From Gaeumannomyces sp. JS-464 (lineage: Eukaryota; Ascomycota; Sordariomycetes; Magnaporthales; Magnaporthaceae), in the NCBI GenBank assembly GCA_002197995.1, contig NGZR01000006.1, positions 2,903,001 to 2,967,000 on the forward strand: a DNA stretch of 64,000 bases, in the 5' to 3' direction. The notes beneath the pieces are model-generated. The model did not search any database, was not told where the DNA came from, and saw only the letters and a list, made by a program, of their open reading frames with translations. Of this stretch, positions 1,277-46,709 are shown piece after piece (the first letter of the stretch is position 1; each line of letters begins with the position of its first letter). A program made the translations under genes and the position numbers.

Positions 1277-2779
1277 TGTCCTCTTTGCGGAATCGAACTG
1301 CAGCTTGACACGAAACATTGCCAGCGATATCGTCCGCCGCATAGCACGATGGGGGCTGGCTGTTGCTGCTAGCTGACAAGGATAATGACGCGGTACTGCG
1401 CCGGCCCAGGAGACGACCATCGCTTGCTTACGGACAATGGTTCGGCTGGTTTTATAATAGGTGAATGAGAGACTGAGATCTCTTTGCAAAGGGAGCATTG
1501 TGAGCCCGGCGGGATGAATGGACTGCCTGGTGTGGCTACAACAAAGAATTGCTCCCAACAACAAGTGTGAAAACGCCTCCTGGTCTTTGAAGTGTATAAC
1601 CCATCAAAGGCGGGAGACTTTTTATTCAAGCAAGACCATCGTCTGCTCGCGCCGCGGTAACGACCTGGTGGTCTAGGTGCCATGGATGGGCGTTAGGCGG
1701 CTGGCTGCACGGGTTGGTGCTTTTTACAATGCAGAGAAAGTCGGGGAACCTCTGCAGAAAGAAAAGGAAGGGGCAGGGAACAGCAGGCAGGGAAAGCCAC
1801 GGAAAGGCCAAAAAGTGAGGATTCCGGAGCTTGAACCGGATTGCTGGAGACCTCATAATGCTCACTACCAGGGTCGAACTGGCGACCTTCGCATTATTAG
1901 TACGACGCTCTAACCAACTGAGCTAAGCGAGCTGGTTTGCTATTGATTGGCTGCTGAGGCACCGAGAGGCGTAGATATGCTTCCCTGTTTTTTTCTTTGT
2001 CTTTGTGTGTGACTCGTGAGGGTTTCTTGCGGTGGAGATGGGTTTTGTCAAGGCCGGCTTGCTCCCGAGGAGCGGGCGGGCTGGAGAGGCGCGAGGCGGG
2101 CATAAAATGCCGCAAAATTCACTTCGGCTCGGCTGGTGGCCATGCAAAAAAAGTCCGAACTGTAATGCTCTTCTGTTCAATGTCCGTCGCCAACGGCTAA
2201 TGGAAGTAATCCTGCAGTATTCCCCGTGGGAGGATGTTAATGTATTCGTGTGCCTTGTGAAAGAACAGGAAAAGGAGAGCCATGGAAACAAGTCTGAGAC
2301 GCCGCCCAAAAGAGAGAGAATACAACCGGGAAAGCGAAAAGACCATGAAAACTAACACCAAGGGGCCATGTCTACCGAGCCCCGAGAAAGTCATCGCAGC
2401 CGCCCGTATATCTGTCAAGCCAACACCCGAACCAATGCAAGTCATGATGATGATAAGCGTGTGTCTTTCTCTCGCGTTGTCGCACTCTTTCTCTCCTTTC
2501 TAAGCGGTCCTCCTCTCTTTCTCGTGTGAAAACCCATGTAAGCGAGGCGTATACGTCGAGTGGTATTCCGTAAGCTGGATAAAGGGAAAAATAAAGGAAA
2601 AAGGAATATTGGAATGATCAGAAGCAAACAGGGTGGTGTGGATGCAGTGCGTGCGCAATGCCGAGGGTGATTGTAGGGAGGCAGAGGCCAGCTCAGCCGC
2701 GGTTTTCCTTGTCTTTGTCTCTTCTCTGTTGTTACAACCCAGTGCGCGCATTATAAACCATCGCCATCTAGCGCCGTCC
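1277..2779. other. Intergenic region containing tRNA-Ile
   Basis: Between the zinc-motif gene and the 3' end of PBS2. Apart from the tRNA at 1859-1932 I find no coding frame with recognisable composition. The left part should be the promoter/leader of the minus-strand gene ending at 611, and the right part the 3' UTR of PBS2. Confidence 0.5.
1859..1932 (-). tRNA. tRNA-Ile(AAT): tRNA-Ile, anticodon AAT (read as IAU)
   Basis: Reading the minus strand from 1932, the acceptor GCTCGCT pairs with AGTGAGC (one G-T). The D arm is GCTC/GAGC. The anticodon stem TCGTA/TGCGA encloses loop CTAATAA, giving anticodon AAT. The T arm is GCCAG-TTCGACC-CTGGT, and the discriminator is A. There is no intron. The 74-nt cloverleaf is intact, unlike the tRNA-like sequences in the A+T-rich block. 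It stands alone between two minus-strand protein genes. Confidence 0.96.
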
Positions 2780-36100: not shown

Positions 36101-38468
36101 CCCATATAAACGAACATGGGCTTTAATGCAGGCAGGCGCTCGATCAAAAAAGGGGAAGTAAATAAAAGTTATCGCCAAATGCATTTTATTAGTAAAAAAT
36201 AAAAACCTGGTGTTAAACCTCCAAATTACACATAAAAAGTTAAAGGGCACGGCGTTAAGGCCGTTTATCTAGGGCTACAAAGGGGCTTAAAGGCTCGCAA
36301 AAGGATTAAAAAAATCGCCAAAAGCCGGCGCAAGCGCTGGAAAAGGCGCGGAGGCCCTCCCGGCCGGCGTTAAAAGCAAAGGAGTGCCGAAAGTAAAAGC
36401 TGGACTTTTGTTAGCCTTATTAGCCTCGTTACGTGCATCCAGGGAGGCACCCAGTTCATGTTAAAAGTAATCCCGCCTTGCGTTGGCCCGTATACCCGTG
36501 CGGGCGCGGGTGCGAGGCCCTGCCGCCGGCGCCTCGTTAAACGGGCCGGCGCTTAAAAGCCGGCCTTTCCTAACCCTAACCGGCTTTGTAACTCGCAGTA
36601 AAAGGTCGTGCGTAAAGCGACTACCCGGGTGCAGTTAAAAGCTATTTACGGCGGCGATTTGCAGGCTAAAAGCTTGCAAATCCCGGCGCTAAACCTTTTG
36701 CAGTGCAATAAGCTCGTAGGGGCAGGGCAGGCCGTATTACGCACGCGTAAAGTTAGTGCAAAGGCCGATATTTAGGCCGGCTAGGTGCTTGCGGGAGGGG
36801 AACGTTAATAAAGCACGGAGGTTAATTTGTTCGAGGAAATTAAGGCACCATAACAACGCTCGCAAAAGGAGGGCCCCTGCTTACGAACGGCTGGCGTAAT
36901 CCCACTTTACGCGCGGTGGGAAGCCCGTTGGCAGTCCTTAAAAGCCGCGATTTTATGCTCCGTTTGCAAGCGAGTTGCCTGTTTAACTTAGGCTAACGTT
37001 AATCGAAAAGAAAGGTCGTACGTTTTAAAGGATCCGTAATTCCCTTCGGCGCCGGCGGTATTAATTACGCCTTAATTAGGGTTGTATTTGGTATAATAAC
37101 AAGCCTATTGCCGTTAAAAAAGCCAAACGGTTTGTTATAAATAGTTAATTAAACTTGTTTATTTAAAAAAAAACTTTTTTATAAGCTTATTTATAGCTTT
37201 TTTATACGCTTAACGGTTTTTAGTATAAACGACGTGCTTTTAAAAGGTAAAAAAAGCCGGCCCGGGTATGGGAAACCTTGTTAAAGTCGTGTTAGTAAGC
37301 ATTTAAACTTTAAGCAAACCAAATCCGTCGGTAACTGTTATTAAAAATACGTAAATCCTTTTTATTAACCTTATTAACCTCGCTTTTATTAGGGCCCGGC
37401 CCGGCCCTTAACTTTCGCCAGGCCTCGTTTTGGGAGTTTTAATTAAGCGATTTTTCGAGGGCTTTCGCGGCTGCAAATTTGCTCCATTTCTTTTTTATTT
37501 AAAGGATAACGTCGGCGTTTATATAATAAACGCAAAGCTGCATTTTTGCAAAGGGAAAACGGGCTTAAAAGCCGGTGCGCAAGCGGGAATTTAAATTCGT
37601 AAAGGCGATTTTAAAGGCGGGGATTTCGAAAGCCGATAAAAAATCGCGGAAAGCACCAAAAAGCTAAAAAAAAGTCGCTTTCGTTTCGTTATTTATTAGC
37701 TTTTAAAAAGCCGGTATCGTCGTGCGTTCGTTAGTTAGGATTATAACCGTTAAAAGGTGCATATTATTACGGTTCGTTTTATAAGTAACGTCGATTTAAA
37801 AGCAGTGCGGGTTAGCTCGAAAAAAAAGGACGGCTTTTTCGTATACCCAAATAACGCCGGCAAAAGTGGTAGTCGTTTTAAATTTCCCTAAAGGAAATTA
37901 AGCGGGTTAAAAGCTTTAAATACGACTTTCGGGTCGCTTAAAACCCGTATTAAAACCGCGGCAAATTTATATCCGTTAACCTCCGCTTTTTTATAAGCCG
38001 CCTTATATTTATATAACGTTAGTAAGCTTTAAAGCACCGTAAGAAAACAAGCCCGGTAAAAGTCGAGTATCGATCGCGTGCGGACGGTAAAATTTTCGAA
38101 TAAAAAGTGTAAAAACCTTTAATGCTTATTAGTAAAAGCTAAAGCTTGTTAGCGAACGGAAAGCTTTATTGCGTTAAAAGGGAAGCGACCGTGGCTTTTA
38201 TTAGTGCATATAATGCACTAAGATATTAAAGTTATTAATTACGTCGTATGGCGTGATTTAGGGTTTATACTTACCTTGTAAGTGTTTCACTTACCTTGTA
38301 AGTAAAACGCTTACCCCGCACTTATTTATATATAAGTGCGGTATATATACAACTTTATTTATTTATATAAGGGCCTTTTTTCCCCTGCGCTAGTTATAGG
38401 AATTCCTAATGCTAAGCATGCTTTTAATACAATCCTTTTCCTTATATTACTTTTAGCATTAATCCTAA
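36100..38468. other. RIP-mutated DNA of unknown origin
   Basis: Left of the retrotransposon. Minus-strand translations between about 36450 and 36960 contain runs of plausible coding composition interrupted mainly by TAA/TAG, as expected for a RIPed gene or element, but I cannot assign them to a family. No LTR, terminal inverted repeat or polymerase motif was recognised. Confidence 0.4.
38268..38345 (+). repeat. Cluster of short palindromes
   Basis: The unit ACTTACCTTGTAAGT, itself a near palindrome, occurs twice 19 bases apart, with a third partial copy. It is followed by a 26-base palindrome: CCGCACTTAT, six A/T bases, ATAAGTGCGG. They lie 120-200 bases outside the retrotransposon end. Possible subterminal repeats of an unrecognised DNA transposon. 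Confidence 0.7.
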
Positions 38469-38914
38469 TGTTATAATTAAAGGTTTACTCCTAAAGTAAA
38501 GCACTTTAGGGGTGGAAAGGATAGTATCGCCGGTTTGGTTAACAAGGGGAACACGTAACTTAAAAGGACAATTTAATTGCTTGCCTTAAAGGATGCTTAG
38601 GAGCTAACTTAAGTTAACTAATGCTAAAGCCTTAATTAAAACTACTTAAAACAGTAGGAAATCCATCCTTTATATACACGCTGCCTTTTGCCATATGTTA
38701 GGTCGGATTTATAGCTTTACTACAAATCCATAAATCCCTTTTGGATTTATTACTTTGTTACAAATCCACAAATCCCTTTTGGATTTATTGCTTTACTACA
38801 AATCCACAAATCCCTTTTAGTTTACGTAACTTTACGTAACCGGGGCGGGGCGAAGCACCACTTTAAAGCCCCCTTTTACTTTGTTATTTTGGGGCTTACA
38901 TACTGGTCGTAACA
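38469..38914 (-). repeat. 3' LTR of the chromodomain element
   Basis: 446 bp with TGTTA...TAACA ends, colinear with the other LTR. Differences between the two are nearly all C/T or G/A. It contains about three tandem units of roughly 39 bp built on ACAAATCCACAAATCCC, and a GCCTTTTGCCATATGTTAGG block conserved in both copies. Confidence 0.95.
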
Positions 38915-38935
38915 TTAGGTTTCCCCTTTTAAGCC
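38915..38935 (-). other. Polypurine tract
   Basis: On the minus strand the internal end reads AAAAGGGGAAACC directly before the 3' LTR. This is the primer position for plus-strand DNA synthesis in LTR retrotransposons and confirms the orientation. Confidence 0.8.
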
Positions 38936-39028
38936 AAATCCTTTTAGCCACGTTTTATCGCCCCGCTTTTTATTAGTAGTAAGTACTTTCCTTTTTTACC
39001 ATTTCCCATCCCTTTTTATTTTAACAAA

Positions 39029-39572
39029 ATGTCCGGTCGGGTGCGAAAACGTCCTTTTACAAAAAAAACCGTTAGTCGTAAGGAGCTTTTAGCGATTGTT
39101 TTCCTTAACTGCTACGAAATGCTTTCCTATTCGTACTATTACGAGGTTTTAAAGCGTAAAAGGTGTAAAGCCTCCCTTTAAAACTCGTTTCGGTGCGTGG
39201 AATGTTTTCGGATTAACCGCTCGGGGTGCGACATCCTAAAGCCTTTTCCCTTTAAATTTCGAAACATCGTCGTTTAACACTTTAAACTTAAAGCTAAGTT
39301 AAAAAAGGCGGAGGAGAAAGTCCTCCGTTTTCGAAAACAAAAACGAATGTGGCTGGAAAAGATAATGCGCGCGGTACGTCGCGGCATTAACTCGGTGGAA
39401 AAGTTGGAGCGTATCGAGCGGGAGGAGGCCGACCAGGCGGCCCGCTAGGCTGCCTCGCTTTTCGAGCCCTTTATGGCTCCTTCCGTTCCTTTCGGCTGGT
39501 AAGTGCCCGGGGTTAATCCTAACCTAAACCTGCTTGCCCTTTTTAACCAGGGTAAGTTGTAACTTTTTTTAA
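39029..39572 (+). pseudogene. Opposite-strand accessory gene inside the retrotransposon (zinc-motif / coiled-coil protein)
   Basis: The ATG at 39029 opens a plus-strand frame of 158 codons to TAA at 39500, opposite to gag-pol. It is broken only by three stops that are single C-to-T changes of Gln codons (TAA, TAA, TAG). The reading starts MSGRVRKRPFTKK, then CKASL, RCVECFRINRSGCD (a Cys motif resembling Zn2Cys6 halves), then a charged segment (KAKLKKAEEKVLRFRKQK, VEKLERIEREEADQAA) predicted to be a coiled coil, ending FEPFMAPSVPFGW. A GTAAGT donor at 39499, a CTAAC branch and a CCAG acceptor at 39550 suggest a 52-bp intron with a short last exon ending at 39572. I recall similar unnamed proteins in other fungal genomes, but cannot verify this here. 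Function unknown. Confidence 0.8.
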
Positions 39573-39583
39573 CAATTTCCTTA

Positions 39584-39654
39584 GGTTTTATGGCGCATTA
39601 GGCGTGGCTTTAATCTTTTTGCCGAGGTTTCGGGTTCGAATCCCGGCACGACCG
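39584..39654 (+). pseudogene. tRNA-like sequence 1 with Pol III A and B boxes
   Basis: Contains TGGCGCATTAGG (A-box-like) and GGGTTCGAATCCC (B box/T arm with intact stem). The 3' acceptor strand CACGACC partly matches GGTTTTA at the 5' end, and most mismatches are RIP-type. The anticodon arm no longer folds, so no identity is assigned. An inverted repeat and a long T run follow directly. Confidence 0.65.
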
Positions 39655-39704
39655 TAAAGGTCGACGAGTTTTCGGGCTTGCCCCGAAGCTCGTCGAATTT
39701 CCAC
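39654..39704 (+). repeat. Inverted repeat after tRNA-like sequence 1
   Basis: Arms around TCGACGAG...CTCGTCGA, with TTCGGG/CCCCGAA toward the loop and a CTTG loop. Outer mismatches are A/G or T/C exchanges, so the original arms were probably about 23 bp and perfect. A tract of about 20 T with one interruption follows at 39705-39726, a potential Pol III terminator. Confidence 0.75.
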
Positions 39705-39787
39705 TTTCTTTTTTTTTTTTTTTTTTGCTAACCGTTCGGTGCAAACTTTTTTGCCCTATTTGGTTTTAGTAAACACACCTTTTTTTT

Positions 39788-39858
39788 AACCAGTGGTATA
39801 GTGGTAACATTTCCTACCTTTTAGCCGGAGGTCCTAAGTTCGATTCCTAGCTAGGTTA
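39788..39858 (+). pseudogene. tRNA-like sequence 2 with Pol III A and B boxes
   Basis: The A box TGGTATAGTGG and B box AGTTCGATTCC are both near consensus. The D-arm pattern GGTATAGTGGTAACAT resembles Gly/Glu/Asp-type tRNAs. Acceptor ends AACCAG and CTAGGTT pair after one RIP-type change and one missing base. The anticodon loop holds CTTTTA but its stem is damaged, so identity is left open. A T8 run follows at 39862. Confidence 0.7.
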
Positions 39859-39870
39859 GGGTTTTTTTTG

Positions 39871-39924
39871 CCACGACCGTTTATACGCACGGGGTACGGC
39901 CGGCGTGTGTATAAACGGCTGCGG
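39871..39924 (+). repeat. Inverted repeat after tRNA-like sequence 2
   Basis: Core arms CCGTTTATACGCAC and GTGTGTATAAACGG are separated by about 14 bases. Extending outward gives about 20-bp arms in which every mismatch is a transition, so the pair was probably perfect before RIP. Confidence 0.8.
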
Positions 39925-39984
39925 TAGGCGGCCCGCCTTTTTGCCTTTGTTAACTTTCGTTTAAAAGTTTTTGCTAATACTTTT

Positions 39985-41110
39985 ATAAAACCTCCTGGCA
40001 ATTTTCGAAATTAGTTCCTTTTTCCCACGTGTTTTTTTCGTAGTTATACCTTTTCCATTTAACCAAATACTTTTTAAACTTATGTTTTAGCTTATAATTT
40101 AGGATTTTTTCGATTTCGTACTTTTATTTTAGGTTAATTTCTATTAATTCGTTGCTTTTAAAGCTTAATGGCGTTAGTTTAAATAGGGAAATATAAAAAC
40201 CGGGTAGGATTTTATGGTTAGTGGTAGTTAAAGTTTATAATTTACGTCCGAAACCTTTTTTAATACCTTAAACGGTTCCAGTTTTTTATGGTTTAACTTA
40301 TCGCTCGGTCGTTTCGTTTTAATATTCCGTCGAAAAAGATAAACGCTATTCCCCTTTTTAAAGGTCGGTTTTTCGATCCTTTTTTTATTTGCTTAAGTAA
40401 TTATGCGGTGCCGTAGCTTTTTTAGCTTTGCTTAAAGGTGTTTATATAGTTTAATAAGCTTCGTTATTTATATTTCCGCTATTAGGGCATGTTTTCCTGC
40501 CTTGGGTTTTTTATACGCTGTAAGCGTAAACTTATAATTCGCATAAAACGGTGTAATTCTTATGCTTTTATAAATTAAGCTGTTATAAGCGAATTAAGCT
40601 ATAAGGAATAGTTGTACTTAATCGTTTTGTTTATAATTAACGTAATAACGTAAATACTGCTTTATGGTTTAATTCGTCCGCTTCGTTTATCCATTTGTTT
40701 AAAAGTGGTAGGTTATAAACAAAAAGTGCTTTGCTTTTAACTTGCTTATAAACCTTTTTTAAAACTTGCTTATAAACAGTTTGTTTTTATTCGTAATTAG
40801 GCGGTTTAGCGTGCCGTATTCCGCTATTACGTGTTTAATAAAAACGTACGCTAGTTTTATAGCGTCGCTGCTTTTTTTATATGGTAAAAATAAGGCGTAT
40901 TTAGTAAGCCTATCCATTATTACTAATACATTGTCGTACTTTACTCCGGTTATCGGTTTTTTGGATTGGGGAAGTTTAATAACGAAATTTATAGTAACTT
41001 TTTGCCATACCTCGCTCGGCGCTAGCAAAGGTTGCAAAAGCTTATAAGGTTTATATTTGCTAGCTTTGTTTTTAGCGCAGCTTTCGCAATTTTTTATCGC
41101 GTTTTGTACT
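39985..41110 (-). pseudogene. Integrase and chromodomain region of the retrotransposon
   Basis: Minus strand. The CESC half of the zinc-binding domain is at 41073-41090. The catalytic core (40759-41037) reads WQKVTINFVIKLPQSK, VLVIMDRLTKYALF and LITNKNKLF. The first Asp of the DDE triad is Asn (INF for MDF) and so are the aspartates of SDRD (TNKN). A C-terminal chromodomain at 39985-40120 keeps YEIEKIL, YLVKWKRY and TWE, with the aromatic-cage Tyr and Trp still readable. Chromodomains of this clade guide integration to H3K9-methylated chromatin, which fits its residence in a RIP island. Confidence 0.9.
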
Positions 41111-41559
41111 TTAGCTCGAGTTTTTGCGAACCCGTAATGTTATTATAACCGTTTCCACGTTTTGGTTACGCTTTAATGGTTATATGCTAGTTGGTTATAA
41201 ATTTGTTGGATTTTTTTTAAAGTTTAAACTTTTCCTTATCGGACCGTTTTAGCGAAAATCTTTTATACCGGGATTAAAAATCCGTTTGGTTTTTTTGCTA
41301 AAATTACTTGTGTTTTTTTAAGTACTGCAACTTAATGGTTCGGTCGTTAGCTTAAAGCGTCCGCCCGGCCGTTTTCCAACCTTTTCCAGTACTTAATCCG
41401 GACGTCGTAATTTTGTAAAAACTCGCTTTAACGGATTTGCCGTTTATTTAAGTTTTTGCTTGTAGTAAAGTGCGTTAGGTTTTTATAATTTATATATATT
41501 ATAACTTAATGCTTTGCTTTACAAAAGTGTAGCCGCCACTTTTTAAATGCTCGAATTAT

Positions 41560-45488: not shown

Positions 45489-45935
45489 TGTTACAATTAG
45501 GGGTTTGCTTTTAAAGTAGGGCATTTCGGGGGTGGAAAGGATAGTATCGCCGGTTTGGTTAATAAGGGGAACACGTAACTTAAAAGGATAATTTAATTGC
45601 TTACTTTAAGGGATGTTTGGGAGCTAACTTAAGTTAATTAATGCCGAAGCCTTAGTTAAAGCTATTTAAAACAGTAGGAAATCCATCCTTTATATATACG
45701 CTGCCTTTTGCCATGTGTTGGGTTGGATTTATAGCTTTGCTATAAATCCACAAATCCCTTTTAAATTTATTACTTTGTTATAAATCCATAAATCCTTTTT
45801 GGATTTATTGCTTTGTTATAAATCTATAAATCCCTTTTAGTTTACGTAATTCCACGTAACCGGGGCGGGGCGAAGCACCATTTTAAGGCCCCCTTTTACC
45901 TTGCTATTTTAGGGGCTTGCATGCTGGTCGTAACA
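45489..45935 (-). repeat. 5' LTR of the chromodomain element
   Basis: 447 bp with TGTTA/TAACA ends, aligned end to end with 38469-38914. The internal bases next to it do not begin with a recognisable TGG primer-binding site; RIP or an unusual primer could explain this. Confidence 0.95.
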
Positions 45936-46537
45936 CTTAACAGCTTTAATAGGTAAAACTCGTTATTTTGGCGTTTTAAAAGCCTCCGTTAGCTTTAAAG
46001 CGTTGCATAACAAAGCCGTACGTGCAGTTGGATATTTGGAAAGTGCTTATACGCAAACGGAGGGCCCGAAAAGCCCGCGGCCGTGGCTGGAAAAAGCACC
46101 CGGCCTTAAGCTTTTTAAAGCTTTAAAAGTTGGATTGCGATCGCACGGTTGTTATTTGGATCCCCTCGGCGTCGAAATAAGCGCTTATAACTTGCATAAA
46201 GGCCTCGTAAGTAGGGTAAAAGGTTAAAAGGACCCTTACGGGGTTAGCGGTTTAAAAAAAGCCGTCCTAATCCGTTAAAAAAGGTTATACCCTTGTTAAA
46301 AGCCGGTTTAACCTTGGCGGGAATCGAACCCGCGGCTTTGTCGTCGTTATCGCTCGAAATCGTAATTATTTCGTTTATAGTAACGGTTATTAAAAAATGG
46401 ATTAAAAATGGCACCAAATTTAATCTGCAAGCAAAATTACGTGGGTTGCGAAACCGGAAGCCACAGGCATTGCACGGGCCAAAAGTGGGGCGGAGTGCGT
46501 GTGGGAGCAAAAAAGGTGCGTGCTTAAAAAGGGCTTT
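45936..46537. other. RIP-type DNA right of the retrotransposon
   Basis: No protein motif recognised, apart from a tRNA-like T arm on the minus strand (listed). A 74-codon plus-strand frame at 46003-46227 has no family resemblance. Confidence 0.4.
46310..46388 (-). pseudogene. tRNA-like sequence 3
   Basis: The minus strand reads CGCGGGTTCGATTCCCGCC, an intact T arm/B box, followed by AAGGTT that can pair with AACC about 75 bases upstream. D and anticodon arms are degraded. It lies outside the complete element, between it and the truncated LTR. Confidence 0.55.
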
Positions 46538-46709
46538 TTTAACTAGGGCTTTAACATTAGTTAACCTAAGTTAGCTCCTAAACATCTCCTAAAGCAAGCA
46601 ATTAAAAGTTACCTTTTAATTACGTGTTCACCCTGTGCCCCGACCAGCGCTACTGTCCAAAACCACCCCTAAAGCGTCCTACTTTAAAAGCAAGCCCCTA
46701 ATTGTAACA
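46538..46709 (-). repeat. Truncated LTR in inverted orientation
   Basis: Read from 46709 downward it begins TGTTACAATTAGGGG and follows the first ~170 bases of the plus-strand reading of the 45489 LTR (GGAGCTAACTTA block, AGTTAAA), then homology stops. It has fewer RIP-type changes in some blocks and its own substitutions, so it comes from another copy. Its intact end abuts GC-rich DNA 55 bases from the MFS stop codon. Confidence 0.85.

Follow-up and report, generated by a model that had tools for sequence, protein, structure and literature searches.

What are two tRNA-like sequences, each followed by an inverted repeat, doing inside a decayed fungal retrotransposon? Such a pair lies in the window, the whole stretch of 64,000 nucleotides from Gaeumannomyces sp. 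JS-464 analysed here, and a preliminary description had proposed that it was a functional non-coding feature before the element was mutated. We establish the architecture of these units, show that every scored copy of the element has them, and describe some covariation and a terminator signature. The sequences also point, more conditionally, to a role for the units as genes of short structured RNAs.

Carrier element and its two units

The window is approximately 60% GC and contains an AT-rich block some 10 kb long, inside which the copy studied here is a RIP-like mutated, Ty3/Gypsy-like LTR retrotransposon of 7.5 kb (Table 1). Its class assignment rests on two LTRs and a likely 5-bp duplication, together with an integrase recognised by eye and, weakly, by Pfam. 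The LTRs, whose ends were set by eye on TGTTAC/GTAACA, have a spacing of 7020 and are 87% identical over 300 nt; the CCTAA and CTTAA that adjoin them are likely a 5-bp target duplication with one transition. Each LTR includes a threefold 38-bp tandem repeat (38703-38823 and 45723-45843). On the plus strand, the 3' LTR is followed by a broken accessory ORF and then by the two units. The accessory ORF shares the strand of the units and is opposite to pol, such that the units, antisense to pol, lie between two convergent reading directions (3' ends). A 105-residue piece of the accessory ORF from the L027 copy had no homologues at E<=0.001, and comparison of the ORF with Pfam gave weak matches only, all under the cut-offs.

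A coding-looking repeat on the minus strand (45936-46540) directly adjoins the LTR element, and several of its matches occur in inverted pairs 2-7 kb apart. A third tRNA-like candidate with a perfect T-arm (46317-46334, minus strand) sits in this often inverted-paired repeat; its T-arm was not kept in several of 10 aligned relatives, and we rejected it as probable chance.

Table 1. Positions in the window of the features of the retrotransposon copy and its two units
Feature	Position	Strand	Remarks
3' LTR	38469..38914	-	Direct repeat with the other LTR; CCTAA adjoins at 38464-38468
Accessory ORF remnant	39029..39502	+	By eye, a Cys-rich part and then a coiled-coil-like one; interrupted by stops in the window copy
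Unit 1 tRNA-like part	39584..39654	+	30-copy alignment; RF00005 in L020 and L071
Unit 1 boxes	A-box-like 39591-39602, B box 39633-39643	+	By eye
Unit 1 hairpin, type A	39654..39704	+	Abuts the 3' end of the tRNA-like part
Unit 1 T-run	39705..39733	+	18 T at 39709-39726, then GCTAACC; Pol III terminator-like
Unit 2 tRNA-like part, type A	39787..39858	+	RF00005 in L006 and L019; pair counts
Unit 2 boxes	A-box-like 39794-39804, B-box-like 39837-39847	+	By eye
T-run between unit 2 tRNA-like part and its hairpin	39862..39869	+	8 T
Unit 2 hairpin, type A	39869..39926	+	z -3.68 in the window copy
Unit 2 terminator-like TTTTTGC	39938..39944	+	5 T at 39938-39942; T-run plus GC signature of the host
Integrase (pol) piece	40759..41139	-	Open frame; Integrase_H2C2 E 0.012, under the Pfam cut-off
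5' LTR	45489..45935	-	Direct repeat; CTTAA adjoins at 45936-45940

Both of the plus-strand tRNA-like sequences previously described, each with its inverted repeat, are present in the window copy. They do stand in tandem, their start-to-start distance being 203 bases and not the 204 first given. The inverted repeats fall within the announced 15 bases or so, the first abutting the tRNA-like part and the second beginning about 10 nt past it. As for the long T-runs said to follow the repeats, 18 T come after hairpin 1, whereas the 8-T run of unit 2 precedes its hairpin. By motif, the units have the layout of type 2 Pol III genes, an A box being followed by a B box and then by a T-run terminator, with the boxes of both units identified by eye; the Pol III-dependent feature proposed in the preliminary description is supported at the level of motifs.

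The tRNA-like part of unit 2 measures 72 nt in the window copy and 73 in most copies. As expected from its heavy mutation, the window copy yields no tRNA by ARAGORN or at the Rfam gathering score, and no RF00005 match reaching E 3. In sister copies the tRNA-like character is clear: RF00005 was matched at E<=1 in 8 of 20 loci. ARAGORN called no tRNA in any of 30. The 11 RF00005 matches in these 20 loci (68 kb) all fall on the units and on their strand, two of them above the gathering score. Scores reach 28.0 bits (L020) and 34.0 bits (L071) in unit 1, and 32.9 (L006), 31.0 (L019) and 31.3 bits (L082) in unit 2, of type A in the first two and type B in the third; the gathering score was passed only in L006, L019 and L082, all in unit 2, and in unit 1 of L071. 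Restored anticodon arms, which had been hoped for, did not appear: the anticodon-side helix is present but its loop is 8-12 nt long, unlike a normal anticodon arm, and the units are therefore tRNA-like rather than tRNA genes. Their best identity to host tRNAs (38 distinct sequences sampled from 59 genes) is 62-64%, a value somewhat lowered by mutation, so that the units are not recent host tRNA insertions.

The window hairpins fold with z scores of -4.68 (unit 1) and -3.68 (unit 2), none of 200 dinucleotide shuffles being as good in either case, and the unit 2 hairpin of L027 reaches -5.94. Median folding energies are -20.3 kcal/mol for the unit 1 hairpin (n=50) against -8.4 for random stretches of the same loci (n=200), and -27.0 kcal/mol for the unit 2 hairpin (n=46) against -10.5 (n=150), leaving out the loci in which unit 1 was not located by pattern (L069, L083) or unit 2 was not located (L061, L065, L071, L076, L077, L078, L080). 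Such folding is not confined to the units, since 8 of 59 host tRNA trailers reach -15 kcal/mol or lower. With stems drawn from L017 and L027, the stem cells of 40 aligned copies comprise 1400 Watson-Crick pairs among 1875, plus 359 G.U, 114 A.C and 2 others, so that the earlier statement that the arms differ only by transitions was nearly right. Both hairpins have fixed G.U pairs. The excess of G.U over A.C favours the plus strand only modestly, since two A.C pairs of hairpin 1 are frequent.

Copies, subfamilies and paired changes

Our search of the host genome (53.0 Mb) returned 260 candidates for the units, and all 40 that were scored match both units (at least bases 1-418 of the 421 of the query) and include element flank. 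Thirty copies were aligned and read, and all copies examined look heavily mutated. Searching with the accessory ORF gave 388 candidates, of which 40 were scored; 20 of these do not adjoin a listed copy of the units, one of them lying about 1 kb from the L002 copy. We read 12 of these 20 relatives, and in every one unit 1 is present, at least in part, at the corresponding position. The units are thus not lacking in other copies, as they would be if peculiar to this one, and accessory ORF and units keep a common strand and order in the copies examined. The best reading is that the units are a standing part of the element, with one or two per copy across a large family.

Within this family the layout is kept and the parts are swapped: unit 1 occurs with hairpins A/A', B or C, and unit 2 with hairpins A or B and a divergent variant. 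The tRNA-like types A and B of unit 2 have equal length and a common acceptor stem but different interiors. Hairpin A or A' of unit 1 accompanies a type B unit 2 in L079, L081 and L085-L087, and hairpin B is found in L080, L082 and L084, the first of which has lost the T-arm of unit 2. A deletion in L083 joins the two units, leaving a type B tRNA-like part with a divergent variant of hairpin 2A; unit 2 is cut short in L078. In L076 and L077 an LTR is inserted in hairpin 1 and unit 2 is absent. These last two copies, on different contigs (C2 and C34), are identical as read (600 of 701 bases) though mutated, which reflects either a recent duplication or an assembly duplication. The subfamily of L071 has a single unit with hairpin C (40 scored matches of 370 candidates; L139-L144 were also read). 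RF00005 matches occur in 4 of its 7 sources, the best at 34.0 bits, and the z score of hairpin C is -3.52 in L139 and a weak -1.60 in L141. All subfamilies come from one genome, so that independent events are few. Relatives in viral contigs were neither confirmed by protein search nor detected by pattern search (0 matches).

Such a family allows us to ask whether paired bases changed together; copies were not treated as independent lineages, and the p values of the covariation and T-run tests serve as guides only. At the inner paired dinucleotide of hairpin 1, 45 copies could be scored: 22 have CG/CG, 13 have TA/TA and none has TA/CG (p=0.0003), while the other 10 are mismatched (CG/TG 6, CG/TA 2, CA/CG 2). 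Four unpaired combinations used as control gave p values of 0.27-1. The outer paired dinucleotide did not covary significantly (p=0.13). Five of the 50 loci (L076, L077, L080, L082, L084) fall outside the type A pattern and were left out of this test.

For the tRNA-like part of unit 2 we compared the 42 of 45 rows that are exactly 73 nt long with a structure drawn from members of the alignment. Covariation amounts to 0.304, against 0.240 after shuffling (reached in 0 of 500) and at most 0.197 in six slid versions. Two of the five measures are ordinary, since 62 of 500 shuffles matched the number of pairs changed on both sides and 420 of 500 the further pair types. Overall, 82.7% of cells are paired, with 92.1% and 91.0% in helices 24-29/42-47 and 49-53/61-65 and just 72.4% and 76.2% in helices 2-8/66-72 and 10-13/20-23. 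When the type A copies are taken by themselves, unit 2 pairs show no covariation, and a rescue of pairing within the mutated copies is not supported, as expected if mutation came after the copies had stopped working. Type A copies do show an overall excess (0.169 vs 0.028), which comes mainly from two pairs of hairpin 1. The compensations are thus few, lineage-level events. Together with the swapped parts in a kept layout, this partial covariation lends support to the repeated functional architecture that had been suggested.

The mutations themselves often appear tandem by eye (CC to TT, GG to AA, CG to TA; 40 copies, window 38740-40900), and site rates by next base (CA 0.51, CT 0.49, CC 0.31, CG 0.21) are unlike a purely CpA pattern. 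After correction for context, the unit 1 T-arm, which carries the B box, is the least mutated of 1486 windows of 20 sites, at about 2 sd. This hints at protection of the unit 1 B box from mutation; no protection was seen at the unit 2 T-arm.

T-runs and host tRNA genes

In 47 of 48 copies of unit 1, GC comes immediately after the longest T-run, which has 9-33 T, and in 42 of 48 it comes after the first run of six or more T; 50 copies were examined, L076 and L077 being without such a run. For unit 1, no T-run in the first 44 nt exceeds 4 T in 49 of 50 copies, and hairpin 1 contains a T4 run in 45 of 50. T4 is also the first T-run of 19 of 59 host tRNA genes. In unit 2, 38 copies could be scored for the longest T-run ahead of hairpin 2A, which has 5 T in 23 of them and 8 T in 11; hairpin 2B has a run of 7-9 T within its 5' arm in all 8 copies that were read. 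These runs before or inside hairpin 2 should be able to stop Pol III, against read-through into that hairpin, and CC-to-TT mutation may have lengthened them.

Of 59 host tRNA genes, 26 have GC directly after the first run of four or more T, against 36 of 383 runs in the background (p=6e-10). The set comprises the 59 of 62 matches listed, from 63 scored of 2743 candidates, without L071 and L072, which are subjects of this study, and L073, a tRNA-Arg gene. T-run plus GC is possibly a species-specific mark of Pol III terminators, as observed in host tRNA genes L031-L060 and L110-L138. The tRNA-Ile(AAT) genes (window 1859-1932, minus strand; L050-L055) have similar 3' trailers, in which a small hairpin, in several of the ATCCGG..CCGGAT type, precedes the T-run.

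Outside the element, the single-copy locus L072 (C33:766079-768150, minus strand) is built on the same plan: a tRNA-like part at locus positions 1001-1072 (43.8 bits; 73% identical to a host tRNA-Val), then a hairpin of 15 bp with perfect pairing (z -8.96), and finally TTTTT. With no visible mutation, this locus resembles an intact host counterpart of the unit.

Known relatives and possible roles

The nearest parallels come from a virus and from another fungus. In murine gammaherpesvirus 68 (MHV68), the TMERs start with a tRNA-like part containing a Pol III promoter, followed by hairpins that yield miRNAs (PMC8223928). They resemble our units as tRNA-like parts coupled to a hairpin in the genome of a parasite, and the direct succession of a tRNA-like part and a stable hairpin that typifies them is found here, hairpin 1 abutting the acceptor stem. 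The units differ in having an LTR retrotransposon as carrier and one hairpin each. In Neurospora crassa, milR-4 arises from a Pol III transcript joining tRNA and milRNA and needs RNase Z; its host locus has two predicted tRNA-Ala genes with the milRNA between them and the star strand after the second (PMC3547838). Here too tRNA parts are joined to a stem in a fungus; unlike milR-4, the units combine tRNA-like parts with compact hairpins inside a mobile element, and what is known of them, as in the comparison with TMERs, comes from their sequence.

Among transposons, the nearest case that we found, judging from the passages of the source cited, is Helenus, which with Ajax and Cassandra (TRIMp3) belongs to LTR-type elements with a Pol III promoter derived from a small-RNA gene (PMC10886601), a feature that the units share by motif. 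The tRNA of TRIMp3 elements is mostly not functional, and in these short non-autonomous elements it is the LTRs that contain the small-RNA part (PMC10886601); the units described here are internal (39584-39944), outside the LTRs and antisense to pol, of which a remnant is present. Those passages of PMC10886601 mention no hairpin in Helenus, whereas the units have hairpins. Fungal tRNA-derived SINEs, such as those of Aspergillus fumigatus, are tRNA-related repeats (PMC5063351) that stand free between target duplications, unlike the scored matches to the units with their element flank. Fungal milRNAs that overlap tRNAs need scrutiny (PMC9757828).

A literature search covering titles and the beginnings of abstracts found no description of tRNA-hairpin units within retrotransposons. 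To our knowledge, the tRNA-hairpin RNA genes described so far belong to a mouse herpesvirus and to a small number of host loci. What is new here is thus the carrier, a retrotransposon, for a known kind of RNA unit.

On balance, we favour the explanation that the retrotransposon carries, in each unit, a small Pol III gene whose product is a short structured RNA. An internal promoter, formed by the A and B boxes, and a cutting site for RNase Z would both be provided by the tRNA-like part. Pol III would make one short RNA per unit, ended by the T-run plus GC; RNase Z, cutting where the acceptor stem ends, would free the hairpin, which might then enter the Dicer/Argonaute pathway as a microRNA-like RNA or a decoy, the units being copied along with the element. 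It is from Neurospora milR-4 and the MHV68 TMERs that we infer that the units would be transcribed, cut by RNase Z and channelled into silencing. The hairpin sequence differs between subfamilies while its fold and position stay, which suggests that the fold is what matters, or else a target that changes fast; one fixed target would be a poorer fit than a fast-changing one or a decoy.

Yeast tRNA genes act as road-blocks to Pol II, and the tRNA-like parts might likewise bind TFIIIC/TFIIIB and form a boundary or road-block where the accessory ORF and pol converge. In that case the hairpins and T-runs would help to end transcription instead of making a product. The position of the units between two convergent 3' ends suits this idea, as do the low mutation of the unit 1 T-arm and the T-runs before or inside hairpin 2, which fit a stop better than a product. 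Yet it leaves unexplained why different hairpins stand beside each tRNA-like part; the element's own genomic RNA has to pass through this region before it arrives at the 3' LTR; and the T-arm effect is small and absent from unit 2; we regard this role as rather unlikely. A functionless passenger, namely a tRNA-derived SINE inserted anciently into an ancestral element and carried along since, would account for a tRNA head with a T-rich tail, and plain inheritance could place it in every scored copy. We nevertheless judge it unlikely, given that the two tRNA-like parts are different, that hairpins and tRNA-like interiors changed with their pairing kept, and that all 40 matches scored among the 260 candidates come with element flank.

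The 3' end of MALAT1 is made by RNase P and RNase Z cutting at a tRNA-like part. An accessory ORF mRNA made by Pol II could similarly run into the tRNA-like part and receive its 3' end from these enzymes, the hairpins protecting the RNA ends, as the common strand and order of ORF and units would permit. Such processing has no need of two tandem units with their own T-run plus GC, and at L072 no long plus-strand frame ends just upstream (1 kb, read by eye), which makes it very unlikely. Hardly credible, finally, is a tRNA-like primer for reverse transcription encoded by the element itself: the acceptor stem of unit 2 is indeed kept between types A and B, but the sequence next to the 5' LTR, compared by eye in 11 copies (the window copy and 10 of 12 fetched ones, the other 2 giving no match), fits the 3' end of neither unit, even allowing for mutation.

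The explanation that we favour, small Pol III genes for structured RNAs, can be extended, by analogy and with no great expectation that it will hold, to a whole clade of fungal LTR retrotransposons with modular Pol III tRNA-hairpin genes that steer or swamp the host RNA silencing by which the element is normally kept in check. Adenovirus VA RNAs are a model of such swamping or steering. The hairpins, which change between lineages with their fold kept, could then be read as a counter-defence acting in the manner of TMERs or VA RNAs. If this is true, mobile elements would carry Pol III non-coding genes besides those for proteins. They would supply fungal microRNA-like RNAs from a source open to testing, and would give a direct system for studying whether retrotransposons confront RNA silencing by means of RNA.
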